64,000 bases of DNA from Halorubrum trapanicum (lineage in GTDB: Archaea; Halobacteriota; Halobacteria; Halobacteriales; Haloferacaceae), in assembly GCF_017873555.1 (NCBI RefSeq), contig NZ_JAGGKE010000005.1, positions 1 to 64,000 on the forward strand, written 5' to 3'. The translations under genes and the position numbers were made by a program. Below, one piece after another: positions 29,682 to 56,905 of the stretch (position 1 is its first letter; every line of letters starts with the position of its first letter). The notes below the pieces were generated by a model. That model was not told the DNA's origin. It made no database searches and saw only the letters and a list, made by a program, of their open reading frames with translations.

Positions 29682-29856
29682 GGGGCTGTGGCCAAGCCAG
29701 GCATGGCGACTGACTCCAGAGGCTTGCGCCCGGGACGACACTCCAGACTGATATACCGAGCGGCCGACTGATCATCGGTCGTGTTGACGACCCTCTGGAG
29801 TTCCGAGGCGCACCGGAGATATCAGTCGATCGGGGGTTCAAATCCCTCCGGCCCCA
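29682..29856 (+). tRNA. tRNA-Trp (CCA) with 101-base intron
   Basis: The acceptor stem GGGGCTG pairs with CGGCCCC before discriminator A at 29856. The anticodon CCA is in the loop CTCCAGA; exon 1 ends after the base following the anticodon (29719) and exon 2 starts at 29821. The intron (29720-29820) separates the two halves of the anticodon arm as usual for archaeal tRNA introns. It contains TCTGGAGT (29794-29801), the reverse complement of the exon sequence ACTCCAGA around the anticodon, as expected for the known haloarchaeal intron that guides methylation of its own tRNA. The 3' end is partly duplicated at 32121. Confidence 0.95.
29720..29820 (+). ncRNA. Intron of tRNA-Trp, probable C/D-box methylation guide
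   Basis: In haloarchaea the tRNA-Trp intron is established as a C/D-box guide for 2'-O-methylation of its own host tRNA in the anticodon arm. Here CTGA- and TGACGA-like boxes are present (for example in GTGTTGACGACC near 29780), and an 8-base guide complementary to the anticodon loop lies at 29794-29801. Confidence 0.75.
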
Positions 29857-29893
29857 CTTCCTGCCGTCGCGAGCAACACCGCGAGCGACGGCG
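29846..29893 (+). repeat. Left attachment-like repeat
   Basis: This is the tRNA-Trp 3' end plus adjoining sequence, matching 32121-32168 in two blocks (14 of 14 and 24 of 25 bases). Confidence 0.65.
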
Positions 29894-29905
29894 ACGTGCT
29901 GAGGA

Positions 29906-29922
29906 GAGATTTGAACCAGGGA
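29906..29922 (-). repeat. Inverted T-arm-like box downstream of tRNA-Trp
   Basis: GAGATTTGAACCAGGGA reads on the other strand as a tRNA T-arm (GGTTCAAATC). The identical 17 bases lie downstream of the initiator tRNA at 48472-48488. A small hairpin GCGGT-AGC-ACCGC follows at 29923-29935. Confidence 0.6.
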
Positions 29923-30164
29923 GCGGTAGCACCGCGATTTATAATTTCTCTATTTCTACTCATAAATTAAATATTTATAGATTTAAGATAAATGTAGGGC
30001 CGAGGATCTCCGATTTCTGCGAATTCGTCAGCGAGAACAACCAGTGGTGTGCTACGCTGAAACGTCTAGGCGGCCACTCTAACAACGACGCTGATGAGGT
30101 TGCCACGGACGGCGGCACGGTCTACCGCGAGATGTCCGAAGAGGTCACGTCGGAGTAGCCGATC

Positions 30165-30341
30165 GTGGTTGATGTCGGCATCGGGGACGACCGGATGCTG
30201 GCAACTGCGGACCGGGACGACATTAGTGTAGTCGTGGAAGTGCCAGCGGGAAGGTCCGAAGAAGAGCTCGCGGAGACGCTCGACGAGGTCCCGGCAAAAA
30301 TTCAAACGGACCGGACCTGTCCGCTAAGGGGTGACCGGTGA
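30165..30341 (+). pseudogene. Small coding remnant, 58 codons
   Basis: From GTG 30165 the frame reads MVDVGIGDDRMLATADRD and continues with an acidic, amphipathic stretch ending GDR. The same frame is open upstream as far as about 30084 but is broken by a TAG at 30156. The composition is that of a halophile protein rather than of the AT-rich gene next door. It may be the end of a gene disrupted by the insertion, or a tiny gene. Not recognised. Confidence 0.3.
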
Positions 30342-30447
30342 TGCCGACCGCGCAATTGGAGACGGAACCCCGGAGCAGGTCAGGAGTAGGATACAATCGC
30401 TGGTGCTCAAAAAACCAGTTTTGAAGGAATAAGGTATCTGTTCCCCA

Positions 30448-31548
30448 TTAGAGCGGCTTCGCGTCATACAAAGAGATATTTTGAAACTCGGGGACGTAAA
30501 CAGTATCCCCACGCCTATCCTCACGCTCATCATAGTGATCAATATATGCAGTAAAAACTGCTTGATATCTATTCACATCTGATGGTATTTTTTGTTCAAT
30601 CTCTCTGATCATTTCCTCATCTGAAAGTGCTTTAGCTACAGCGAGTGTCCCCTCACCATGACAGCCAGCAACGAGAAGATGGATGTTATTATCATACTCT
30701 GTTAGTGGTGAATAATCTTCGTACTTTTCGTATTGTTCCCATCCCTCATGTAACTTCTTGACAACCGCCATTCCATAATCGATTCGGTACTTTGGTCGGT
30801 TAGAATCTCCAAGGGTAGGTTCACCATCCCTTTTTTCCGGTTCAATTGACGTAGGATCTCCATAAGATTTTGTAATAGGCCAGTTCGTTCTTTCACTTCT
30901 TATCTCATCAAGGGACATGCCATAGTATTTTTCTGAAGGTGCCAAGTCAAAAATATACGGCAAACGCCCTTGGTACTCAGCAATCGAGTCTGGATCGTAC
31001 CCCATACTTAACGCTACAAATTCAGAGCCAAGCGGGCCTGTTGTTGTTGCGATATGTCCTGCTTTATTTACATCTAATTCATTAACAGACTGTGGTTCAA
31101 CATCATCAACGGTTTTTAAAACAGCATTAGCAAGTTCTACTTGTGTAAGAAAGTCAATTTCACCAAGATCACTGATTTCAGGCGCACCGCGGCCAGGAGT
31201 TACAAATATATCTCCAGTAAACCACAGTAATCTTGAGTAGATCGACTCATCGACGAAATTAGGCAGGTATGGCTCAAGCGCTTCATCAACCTCCATAGCA
31301 GTTGCTGCCCCACTACCAACGATACCGGTGGCCAGACCACCAATAAATGATATCCCAATATCTTTTAAAACAACACGACGAGACACGCTATTATCCGACT
31401 CATTCGGCTTAGCACGTTCAACTATCGCACTATTGTCATCGAATACCTTCCACTTGATTCTGTCACCTACACTTAGACCCAGTTGATATTGGATACTATC
31501 TGGTATAATTTTTAATTTTTCCTCGCTAATTTCTGTATATTCTGCCAT
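30448..31548 (-). CDS. AbrB-like domain fused to membrane segment and unknown domain
   Basis: This 366-residue protein is in the AT-rich insertion and has AT-rich codon use unlike all neighbours. Residues 1-48 look like an AbrB/SpoVT swapped-hairpin domain (IPDSIQYQLGLSVGDRIKWKVFDDNSAIVERA). Residues 56-62 read SRRVVLK, like a twin-arginine motif, and are followed by a hydrophobic segment (about 63-85). The rest is an unrecognised domain with GCHGEGT near 310. A TATA-like box about 30 bases before the ATG (near 31580) suggests a leaderless transcript. A DNA-binding-type domain before a membrane segment is odd. Function unknown. Confidence 0.8.
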   Translation of the reverse strand: MAEYTEISEEKLKIIPDSIQYQLGLSVGDRIKWKVFDDNSAIVERAKPNESDNSVSRRVVLKDIGISFIGGLATGIVGSGAATAMEVDEALEPYLPNFVDESIYSRLLWFTGDIFVTPGRGAPEISDLGEIDFLTQVELANAVLKTVDDVEPQSVNELDVNKAGHIATTTGPLGSEFVALSMGYDPDSIAEYQGRLPYIFDLAPSEKYYGMSLDEIRSERTNWPITKSYGDPTSIEPEKRDGEPTLGDSNRPKYRIDYGMAVVKKLHEGWEQYEKYEDYSPLTEYDNNIHLLVAGCHGEGTLAVAKALSDEEMIREIEQKIPSDVNRYQAVFTAYIDHYDEREDRRGDTVYVPEFQNISLYDAKPL

Positions 31549-32120
31549 CGTTCATCACACCTACTAATTATGTTCAATATAAAAAAGTTTGATGATTAAT
31601 GTGAGCTATCAAATATATCTCCGATTATCGTGTTATTACACAGGCATGGCTCTACCCAGACGCATTGGGGAGACAAATTATACGCTCACTCCAAGGAGAA
31701 GAATGCTAAAATTCTCAAAGGCGCGTTTGAGAATAATCATCAAAACAGTGATTTCCGACGGCAGACGGTTTCAGGAGTTCCGTGTATTTGCTAACTCTCG
31801 CGTTCCATCAGTAAAATAATAAACTCACACGGGAGCTTTTATGACGATGTGCCGTCGTCATGGTTCCGGTTTTGGAGGGGTAATAGCTCTTCCGCGTAGC
31901 CCCGCTAGCTACGCCTTCACAGAACCGATCTCGGGGTCATACAGCAAAAGACAGCTCCTAACGCTAAAGTGGTTCATTTAGATCGACCGCCTCAAGTCGT
32001 GATTCGGTAGTGACTTAATAAAACGACCGAGTCCACAATGAGCCAGTATAACAAGACGCCAACAGTCGGATCGGTTGGTGGGAAGACCAGAAAAGTCAAA
32101 TCTGTGAATTTGGCTCCCTT
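31549..32120. other. AT-rich non-coding part of the insertion
   Basis: No convincing gene is seen. The frame 31589-31819 is short, basic and lacks recognisable features. A hairpin GCGTAGC/GCTACGC lies at 31894-31914. The segment ends at the second copy of the tRNA 3' end. It presumably carries the promoter of the long AT-rich gene near 31580 and remnants of the element. Confidence 0.5.
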
Positions 32121-32168
32121 CTCCGGCCCCACTTTCCGCTCCTGCGAGCAAGACCGCGAGCGACGGCG
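32121..32168 (+). repeat. Right attachment-like repeat
   Basis: This copies the tRNA-Trp 3' end (14 identical bases) and the following GCGAGCAAGACCGCGAGCG block, matching 29869-29893 with one mismatch. Confidence 0.65.
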
Positions 32169-32192
32169 CTGAAAATTCGATCCGGCCTGCGA

Positions 32193-32393
32193 CTACCGCC
32201 GGGATACGATTCGCCCGGCTAAGATGCCAACGACCGCGATCATCCCCGCCATCGCGAGGTAGATCGCTAGCCCGATCAGCTCGCCGTTCGCGCCGTTCAC
32301 GCCCGCGAGACCCAGGAACACGACGGCGATGACGGCGTGGAGGGCGAACACGCCGGAGGGGACGTTCGCTCCGAGCTCGAATCCGATCTCCAT
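32193..32393 (-). CDS. Small two-helix membrane protein
   Basis: This 66-residue protein starts MEIGFELGANVPSG and has two hydrophobic helices (about 14-33 and 41-62) ending in RRIVSRR-like positive charge. The ATG at 32393 is chosen; the longer frame to 32471 adds sequence with no sign of being coding. It is divergent from the beta-propeller lipoprotein gene. Function is unknown. Confidence 0.75.
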   Translation of the reverse strand: MEIGFELGANVPSGVFALHAVIAVVFLGLAGVNGANGELIGLAIYLAMAGMIAVVGILAGRIVSRR

Positions 32394-32503
32394 ACCGTGA
32401 CTTCGGCCACCGTCGGAAAAAGTCGTCCGGTCGAAACGTGCGACGTCGGCCGCGACCGGCACGGCCGCCACACTAAAGCGACCCCGGCGCGACGGCTATC
32501 CCG

Positions 32504-33805
32504 ATGACCGACGCCCGCTCTCGCCGCGAGTGGCTCGCCGCGGTCGGCGCGGCGACGACCGCTGCCGCGGCCGGCTGCGCCTCCCTCAACAGTCCGCCCG
32601 TGAACGCCGACCGCGAGGCCCCCGACGTGGATCCCGGTGCGGGGGACTCGACGCGGCAGACGATCCCTCCGGGCGTCGCGCAGTTCCGCGGGTCGCTGGA
32701 GCGGTGGGGGTACTACCCGGACGAGACGGTGCCCGACGCGGTCGAGGAGGCGTGGCGGATTCCCGAGGTCAACACCGGCGATCACAGCGCGGCGAAGGCG
32801 AGCGCGGTACCGCTCCCCGGCGGGGGCGTCGTCCTCCCGGGCGACACCGGCGAACTGCTCGCGATAACGGCGGCCGGCGAGGTGCGCTGGCGCGGCGAGA
32901 CGGACGCCGGAGGCCGCGGGATCCACGGCACGCCGGCGGTCGCGGACGGCCGCGCGTACGTCGGCGCGTACGACGGCGTCTGCTACGCGTTCGCGCTCGA
33001 CTCGGGCGACCTGAAGTGGTCGACGAACCTCGGCGGTTCGATCGGGTCCAGCCCGCTGTACTGCGACGGCGAGCTGTACGTCTCGGTCGAGTTCCCGACG
33101 CCCGAGGGGCGGCTGTTCGCGGTCGACGCGGAAACCGGCGACGTCACCTGGGCGGAGCCGGAGCACCGTCCCACCGATCACCCCCACTCCTCGCCGGCCG
33201 TCTCGCTCGACGCCGGGCGGATGGTGTGCGGGTCGAACGACGGCTACTGCTACTGCTGGAGCTTCCCGGACCTGGAGTTCCAGTGGCGGTTCGCGACGGA
33301 CCCGCCCGAGACGAACAACGGCGAGATCAAAGGCCCGATCGCGACGTACGACGGGGCCGCCTTCTTCGGCTCGTGGGACACCAACGTCTACCGGGTGGAC
33401 TTGGCGACCGGCGAGGAGGACTGGCACTTCGAGACGGGCGACCTGTCGATGACGGGACCCGCGATCGACCCCGAGCGCGACGTGGTGTACATGGGGAGCC
33501 ACGACGACCACCTGTACGCGCTCGACGCGTCGACCGGCGACGTGGAGTGGCGCTTCCGAACGGGTCGCCCGTTGACCGGCTGCGCGACCGTCGCCGGCGA
33601 CCGCGTGCTGACGGGGTCGAAGGACGGCACGCTCTACGCGCTGGAGGCCGACTCCGGCGACGAGGTGTGGCGGGTCGACCACGACGGGTGGATCACGAGC
33701 GCGCCCCGCGTCGTCGACGGCGAGATCTACTACGCCGAGCGCGCGCCGGACCCGGCGAGCGGCGACGTCGACGGCGGCGGGTACAAGCTCGTCGCGGCGG
33801 AGTGA
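32504..33805 (+). CDS. Tat-exported lipoprotein with PQQ-like beta-propeller
   Basis: This 433-residue protein begins with a twin-arginine signal (SRREWLAAVGAATTAAAAGC) whose AAGC is a lipobox, so it should be folded before export and then anchored by lipid at the outer face of the membrane. The mature part contains seven or so repeats of the DGxxYALDxxTGDxxWxF type, the signature of PQQ-like (BamB-like) propellers. Several haloarchaeal relatives exist without known ligands. A binding or scaffolding role is likely; quinone binding is not shown. Confidence 0.93.
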   Translation: MTDARSRREWLAAVGAATTAAAAGCASLNSPPVNADREAPDVDPGAGDSTRQTIPPGVAQFRGSLERWGYYPDETVPDAVEEAWRIPEVNTGDHSAAKASAVPLPGGGVVLPGDTGELLAITAAGEVRWRGETDAGGRGIHGTPAVADGRAYVGAYDGVCYAFALDSGDLKWSTNLGGSIGSSPLYCDGELYVSVEFPTPEGRLFAVDAETGDVTWAEPEHRPTDHPHSSPAVSLDAGRMVCGSNDGYCYCWSFPDLEFQWRFATDPPETNNGEIKGPIATYDGAAFFGSWDTNVYRVDLATGEEDWHFETGDLSMTGPAIDPERDVVYMGSHDDHLYALDASTGDVEWRFRTGRPLTGCATVAGDRVLTGSKDGTLYALEADSGDEVWRVDHDGWITSAPRVVDGEIYYAERAPDPASGDVDGGGYKLVAAE

Positions 33806-56231: not shown

Positions 56232-56495
56232 ATGTCGTCCGATGAGCCTGAAGTAACCACGGTAACCTCGAAGGGACAGATCACGATCCCGAGTACACTC
56301 AGAGACCAATTCGGACTCGAACAGGGGACGAAGCTCATGGTCGTCCCGACGGAGTACGGTCTCGTGTTGAAGAAAGTCGACCTCCCATCGATCGAAGAGT
56401 TTCAACAGCGTGTTGAAAACCGGACGGACGCGGGCGAAACGTCTCTCGACGAGGTCACTCGACTCGTCCACGAGGCGCGGGGCAGCGACGAATGA
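56232..56495 (+). CDS. AbrB/MazE-type antitoxin
   Basis: This 87-residue protein begins with the AbrB swapped-hairpin motif EVTTVTSKGQITIPSTLRDQFGLEQGTKLMVV (residues 7-39) and ends in a helix likely to bind its toxin. The stop overlaps the start of the PIN gene by ATGA, the classic order of VapB-like antitoxin and VapC-like toxin. It may be part of the accessory content: the upstream region (56100-56230) is AT-rich and contains an inverted-repeat-like CTTGCGTAAGGAATTCTTAC stretch. Confidence 0.88.
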   Translation: MSSDEPEVTTVTSKGQITIPSTLRDQFGLEQGTKLMVVPTEYGLVLKKVDLPSIEEFQQRVENRTDAGETSLDEVTRLVHEARGSDE

Positions 56496-56905
56496 GGGCG
56501 GTGCTGGATACGAACGTCTTCATCTCGGGCGTCATCGCAACCGGTGTGCCACACGAACTTCTCGTCAAGGGATTCGAACGCGAGTACCAGATCGTCGTTT
56601 CGGTGGAAACGCTCACCGAGTTCCGTGAAACGCTGCTCAAGTACCCAGAGCGCTTTCACATGAGCGAACACGAGGTACAACAAGAAGTCGAACTGGTCCG
56701 ATACTGTTCGGAGTTCGTCGATCCGCAGGAAGACATCACGGCTGTTGAGGCGGACCCCGACGACGACAAGTTCCTTGAAGCGGCCGTCGCCGGTGGCGTC
56801 GATTACCTCGTCTCCGGCGACGGACACCTGCTCGATCTCGACTCGTTCCGTGGGATCGATATCGTCGAACCGAGGACGTTCTATGATCGACTCGACGCGT
56901 CGTGA
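56492..56905 (+). CDS. PIN domain toxin
   Basis: This 137-residue protein has the PIN catalytic acids: D6 in MRAVLDTNVFISG, the EFRETLLKY glutamate, the DPDDDKFLEAA aspartate cluster and the final SGDGHLLDL aspartate. It belongs to the PIN_3/COG1569 group. As VapC-like RNases, such proteins cut tRNA or mRNA and are restrained by the antitoxin encoded just upstream. Activity is inferred from the conserved acids only. Its 3' end faces the hairpin array. Confidence 0.9.
   Translation: MRAVLDTNVFISGVIATGVPHELLVKGFEREYQIVVSVETLTEFRETLLKYPERFHMSEHEVQQEVELVRYCSEFVDPQEDITAVEADPDDDKFLEAAVAGGVDYLVSGDGHLLDLDSFRGIDIVEPRTFYDRLDAS

Follow-up and report, generated by a model that had tools for sequence, protein, structure and literature searches.

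Pleolipovirus-like proviruses have been described in which attP lies within a coding sequence (CDS) that has the integrase on one side and a CxxC gene on the other (excerpts of PMC7911831), and the att sites of SNJ2 are given as 13 bp in the passages used from PMC8371274, which also cite integrase-less integrated elements on record for haloarchaea and Methanococcales. For Halobaculum, a pleolipovirus-like provirus at the tryptophan tRNA is mentioned in the legend of S9 Fig in PMC10599561. The locus reported here lies at the tRNA-Trp gene in a 64,000-nucleotide stretch of the Halorubrum trapanicum genome (contig NZ_JAGGKE010000005.1, positions 1 to 64,000; hereafter the window). I read it, with a probability of roughly 80%, as a defective SNJ2-integrase-type element that has been reduced to its ends and one cargo gene. 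Its features are listed below; genomes, contigs, and loci used for comparison are denoted by G, C, and L numbers.

29682-29857, + strand: tRNA-Trp gene with intron (ARAGORN intron option), the 3' end of which is the integration target
29846-29859, + strand: att1 core, 3' end of tRNA-Trp
29856-29935, + strand: tRNA-flank unit, a hairpin plus inverted T-arm, outside the element
29936-29958, + strand: att2, a second and decayed tRNA 3'-end copy; the element's left junction
29959-30158, + strand: left part of the att-crossing CDS with a degraded CxxC (SDFCEF), protein match to a CDS of G008
30132-30320, + strand: broken ORF copy with one TAG, of a family that precedes PCNA in related elements
30321-32031, no strand: AT-rich block, GC 0.433, no counterpart in the genus
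30448-31548, - strand: intact 366-codon cargo gene, sole intact ORF of the AT-rich block
32038-32172, + strand: right part (start) of the att-crossing CDS, MSQYNKTPTVGSVGG...LAPFSGPT
32121-32134, + strand: att3, right att core, 14 nt identical to att1
32135-33805, no strand: chromosomal right flank, which in G022 starts directly behind att2
32193-32471, - strand: small membrane-protein-like gene of the right flank
32504-33805, + strand: PQQ-repeat gene of the right flank

The tRNA-Trp gene was missed by a default ARAGORN run and required the intron option, which gave an intron of 101 bases. It was matched at E <= 4e-73 in 50 of the 52 genus genomes, with short pieces only in G404 and G002. The direct repeat that starts at its 3' end measures 48 nt (29846-29893 and 32121-32168, 85% identity, spacing 2275). 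An earlier note, made from the sequence alone, had reported that 14 bases of the tRNA 3' end and a 25-base stretch reappear 2275 bases downstream, which holds in detail: the first 14 nt (CTCCGGCCCCACTT) are exact between the copies, and 24 of the last 25 nt are identical. Querying the 3.08-Mb genome of the strain itself with the tRNA-Trp 3' region recovered the right copy at E 8.7e-9, and the repeat is therefore not a product of chance. The 25-base stretch is chromosomal 3' flank of the tRNA and lies outside the att core. The same note had called the interval AT-rich. This is correct for 30321-32031, where GC is 0.433, while 583 windows of 1.7 kb taken elsewhere than in the element average 0.693 (sd 0.027, minimum 0.601), and the AT-rich zone as a whole spans about 29935 to 32030, but the ~80 bases directly after tRNA-Trp are GC-rich and outside the element.

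The view that the element starts at the tRNA's own 3' end had to be given up, as its own left att is the decayed copy att2. At +103, att2 was the best among 2264 positions scanned for likeness to the tRNA 3' end, and its differences from that end are almost all C>T and G>A. From att2 on, the window aligns with the sequence found directly behind the tRNA in G008, G026, G028, G034, and G065, and the left junction is placed at att2 because this alignment with the relatives' tRNA-proximal element sequence begins there. A second exact core is present +104 to +113 bp behind the first in G009, G016, G022, G023, G025, G027, G029, G185, and G231, and G016 has a third core as well. The segment 29846-29893 was considered as the element's own left end and rejected, as 29856-29935 is repeated after numerous tRNA genes in the genus and the start of the element is at ~29959.

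The recurring sequence is a ~100-bp palindromic unit composed of a hairpin, an inverted T-arm (29903-29917 in the window), and a renewed tRNA 3' end, and it is found genus-wide (loci L148, L151-L167, and L002). It was seen behind tRNA-Trp, Lys(TTT), Pro(TGG), Val(TAC), Leu(TAA), and Ala(GGC), at some loci in two or three tandem copies, with the tRNA part fitting the local tRNA. Of 20 loci inspected, 18 have a tRNA gene in the fetched stretch; these loci were hand-picked among weaker matches to the tRNA-Trp region and are not a random sample.

Both ends of the element match both ends of a 45-kb island at tRNA-Trp in G008. On the left, the frame through att2 runs into ...KINVGPRISDFCEFVSENNQWCATL, the homologue of which is the att-crossing CxxC CDS of G008 (...VNVEPKICEFCGLYITEYNQPCAAL; 44%, E 1.3e-5 over 29967-30059); the CxxC is degraded to SxxC in the window. 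On the right, the terminus matches the G008 CDS (MSQRKQTRSVGSVGK...FASPSGPI) at 45% in protein (E 1.1e-4) and at 71% in DNA (E 1.8e-9), and its DNA also matches G065 (E 8.2e-7). Each of the half-CDS matches is short, at about 31 residues and 44-45%. The left and right halves lie in a single frame across the core, which fits a CDS that becomes complete only on circularisation, and with both of them seen in the window the layout agrees with an attP inside a CDS of the kind found between integrase and CxxC gene. Copies of the tRNA 3' end stand at both junctions: the 14-nt core occurs at 29846 and again at 32121, and the decayed copy at 29936. At E <= 0.01, eight of 41 genomes have a CxxC CDS near the tRNA end (G000, G008, G026, G028, G032, G034, G065, and G371, the last of which is a weak match with E 0.003). 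In G025, the bridging query matched at +7.8 kb (E 1e-4), away from any core, and this match was not used; three to four weaker bridging matches (E 0.006-0.009; G004, G030, G032, G050) were set aside.

In G008, the right-end CDS extends from inside the last part of a gene for a 343-aa integrase into the second core, which lies 44,967 bp away from the tRNA, and integrase and CDS overlap in the same way on contig C18 of G065. The best matches of the G008 integrase in the phage collection were LSV-48N (45%), Humcor2 (43%), HRPV-9 (39%), and SNJ2 (36%), which places the enzyme in the SNJ2 family; its Phage_int_SAM domains score over the cut-off and a Phage_integrase match falls just under its cut-off. 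G008 and G065 carry an integrase of this family at the corresponding end; it is absent from the window, where no integrase-like sequence was found inside the interval and no integrase residue could be recognised upstream of 32038. The earlier note was thus right about the missing integrase, and its idea of an integrated virus- or plasmid-type remnant that has lost this gene agrees with the match of both termini to the ends of the G008 island. Because of the missing integrase, the element was filed as a remnant of an SNJ2-integrase-type element and not as an intact member, and it should be immobile and fixed unless an integrase acts in trans.

The G008 island has low-GC cargo adjoining its integrase and carries a cytosine methylase and an MkoA-like helicase, which I take to correspond to Mokosh. 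A second recombinase gene lies at 15.7-16.4 kb of the G008 stretch, which may consequently be composite, so that the 45 kb are not necessarily one element. The genome of the strain itself encodes a further integrase of the SNJ2 family, 36% to that of G008, at C2:187240-188226; it might conceivably act in trans and probably marks a second integrated element. This gene (L169 8723-9895) is located close to a 1277-aa gene, with a tRNA-Val some 8 kb away. A second copy of the window's element was sought in the same genome and none was found, the sole other match being the flank unit of tRNA-Val.

The locus was compared across 41 genus genomes (G050, from another family of the order, was left out of the count). 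The conserved right flank was located in 21 of these, its distance to the tRNA ranging between 159 bp and 18.4 kb, and was not found within the stretch available in the other 20; the tRNA-Trp locus is hypervariable in the genus. Nearly empty sites occur in G022 (175 bp), G025 (184 bp), and G231 (285 bp). In G022, the match to window positions 29835-29950 runs straight into the match to 32121 onward (72%, E 1e-21), and with these flanks contiguous the site must have existed without the element. Empty sites in relatives had been proposed as a check beforehand, together with larger, integrase-bearing insertions at the same locus, and insertions that have an integrase and are bounded by the same core were likewise found, at 45 kb in G008 and at 1.8-2.6 kb in G014, G015, and G061. 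The interval is not shared by all relatives: 30300-32180 is absent from the 51 other genus genomes, which matched only at the att and flank ends and in one 23-base stretch (E 9e-4).

Among the insertions at the tRNA-Trp core are very small elements of 2.4-2.6 kb that consist of one low-GC cargo gene and one integrase (G014, G015, and contig C18 of G065), while the 1.8-kb element of G061 has, besides its integrase, a very small ORF only. The compact elements with an SNJ2-like integrase are located at L061 15968-17968 (G014), L043 484-2526 (G015), L146 6071-8611 (G065), and L125 398-2238 (G061). The cargo of the G015 element is a PDC-S31 (DUF2971) gene, and the gene in the G065 element contains an RNRIMH stretch, which presumably resembles HEPN motifs. 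Those parts of the literature on haloarchaeal tRNA integration and small integrative elements that were drawn on contain nothing on integrase-plus-one-gene elements at tRNA-Trp, and such elements may be unreported.

Behind the left terminus of the window's element, 30132-30320 matches a family of ~100-aa ORFs (48%, E 1.2e-10) that is present in 16 of 52 genus genomes, the window's included. This ORF directly precedes a PCNA gene in G008, G065, and G014, where the pair is located about 2-3 kb from the tRNA within a larger element. The loci of the family that were examined lie near tRNA-Trp, Pro, Lys, or Val, often together with a ~203-aa recombinase; no tRNA was called in the stretches of G028 and G026, and the tRNA is ambiguous in G011 and G005 C1. 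Loci L112-L124 are mostly tRNA-linked elements that share the ~100-aa marker ORF and carry PCNA, HNH, methylase, and ~203-aa tyrosine recombinase genes, and the neighbours in L113 resemble toxin and restriction-modification genes. The window retains no virion gene and gave no match to any PHROG family, so that virus and plasmid origin are not separable; the interval likewise yielded no Pleolipoviridae spike, ATPase, or other conserved virion or replication gene.

Beside these broken ORFs stands the intact cargo gene. Its 366 codons exceed the longest ORF obtained in 500 mononucleotide shuffles of the AT-rich block, which had 180. The 366-aa product has a hydrophobic segment at ~59-77 and conserved C-terminal GP, LPYxF, and AGCHGxGT motifs, and the invariant residues of its family cluster in GP, LPYxF, NW, DY, and AGCHGxGT. 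The N-terminus matches Pfam PF04014 (SpoVT-AbrB/MazE) weakly, with 15.0 bits against a cut-off of 24.7, while the nearest relative, a protein of G092 with 55% over almost the full length, carries a MazE/AbrB domain that passes this cut-off with 34.2 bits. Relatives in G077 and G360 match at 25-28% over the C-terminal half, and a protein on a Chloroflexota contig matches the G360 relative at 30%. A profile of the family matched 4 of 391 class genomes, the window's own included; the single-sequence search listed ten class genomes, six of them with short and weak matches (E 3.6e-5 to 1e-3). Phages, plasmids, and IMG/VR contained no relatives; a first GTDB scan returned none, and a second returned two loci, one of which is the G360 contig already seen. 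No PADLOC family matched the product at E <= 1, nor its relatives at E <= 1 or 0.1. Judged by the phage, plasmid, viral, and defence-family libraries searched, none of which gave a match, the cargo family appears to be undescribed. Two AlphaFold2 models had mean pLDDT values of 36.6 and 33.5, too low for a usable structure.

Compared with the G092 relative, the gene shows a pN of 0.256 and a pS of 0.80 with saturated dS, and 121, 62, and 221 differences at the three codon positions in 357 codons, a pattern that indicates coding constraint since the split from G092 and not selection after integration. The most likely role of the product is that of a membrane-associated effector, the N-terminus of which would be DNA-binding or antitoxin-like. 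It possibly has a role in defence, a guess from gene context: the G092 relative adjoins an Eco57I-type N6 methylase (best PADLOC match a type IIG restriction enzyme-methyltransferase, E 1.3e-46), and to this restriction-modification neighbour are added the methylase and helicase of G008 and the PDC-S31/DUF2971 gene of G015. Elsewhere in the window, a second, milder GC dip at 56232-56905 holds an AbrB-type gene and then a PIN-domain-like gene, a pair that by eye looks like a VapBC-like toxin-antitoxin.

In the most likely sequence of events, an SNJ2-family tyrosine integrase inserted the element into att2, the tRNA-Trp 3'-end copy situated ~100 bp downstream of the tRNA gene. An internal deletion, presumably after integration, would then have removed the integrase together with the genes for replication and any for virions, so that both termini and a single cargo gene remained. 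The AT-rich gene would have come as the element's cargo and not as a later insertion; since nothing in the genus corresponds to the block, its assignment to the element is argued from its position. That it instead arrived later on the old scar of a G008-type element, by illegitimate recombination or with another element, is improbable, although of the alternatives weighed here it is the one to be taken most seriously. The block differs in GC from the left remnant 29959-30320 (0.433 vs 0.552) and lacks a counterpart in 52 genus genomes, as a separate arrival would have it; against this, low-GC cargo beside the integrase also occurs in G008 and is hence expected at that end, and no repeats were found that mark a separate insertion.

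The very small elements at the same core lend themselves to a more far-reaching proposal, which ranks next and which I consider improbable as well. The tRNA-Trp 3' end would act as an exchange socket of the genus for 1.8-2.6 kb cassettes of an SNJ2-family integrase and one AT-rich defence-like gene, with the window holding an integrase-free cassette and the 366-aa gene founding a new family of membrane-anchored, AbrB-tipped defence effectors, the C-terminal domain of which is shared with the Chloroflexota protein. A plainer version, in which the element was compact to begin with (one AT-rich gene followed by an integrase, flanked by att sites; about 2.5 kb) and lost its integrase only, is slightly less probable still: one-cargo-plus-integrase elements do exist at the tRNA-Trp core in G014, G015, and G065, but the window keeps the broken PCNA-adjacent ORF typical of a larger element, and its termini match the G008-type element and not the compact ones. 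It is hardly conceivable that no insertion took place and that the interval is ordinary intergenic DNA, AT-rich and containing dispersed repeats of the tRNA flank. The flank unit is truly dispersed behind several tRNAs, yet the interval is missing from the 51 other genus genomes and has element termini on both sides, and the empty arrangement of G022 already contradicts this reading.

Read as a defective element reduced to its ends, the case shows a tRNA-targeting archaeal element shrinking to termini and one cargo gene with the empty site in hand, and such shrinkage would be a route by which foreign orphan genes settle beside tRNA genes. Less ordinary are the cargo family, which appears to be undescribed, and the tiny elements of G014, G015, and G065 that the locus comparison revealed. 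With its AGCHGxGT motif and its occurrence in few haloarchaea and one Chloroflexota genome, the cargo family is a concrete candidate for defence assays.

Among known systems, the SNJ2-integrase-type elements comprise the betapleolipovirus SNJ2, Humcor2, Halfvol1, and related proviruses, and by its integrase the lemon-shaped LSV-48N. The window's element shares with them a 13-14-bp att at a tRNA 3' end, a CDS crossing attP, and a CxxC gene at the far att side, and its relatives share with them an SNJ2-family integrase. It differs from them in having neither integrase nor virion genes, and its relatives carry PCNA, HNH, and methylase genes with no recognised pleolipovirus block. The prophage islands of Haloquadratum, as far as the excerpts of PMC3119063 describe them, resemble it in the duplication of a tRNA 3' end around foreign DNA and in repeat-mediated deletions, but are situated at tRNA-His and others, are larger, and have an integrase. 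The integrase-less elements of haloarchaea and Methanococcales, as cited in the passages of PMC8371274, are likewise found at tRNA genes with the integrase gene lost; in contrast to what is reported of them there, the window shows both halves of the att-crossing CDS, an empty site, and an intact cargo gene. The element thus most likely belongs to a known kind, as a reduced SNJ2-integrase-type element at tRNA-Trp.
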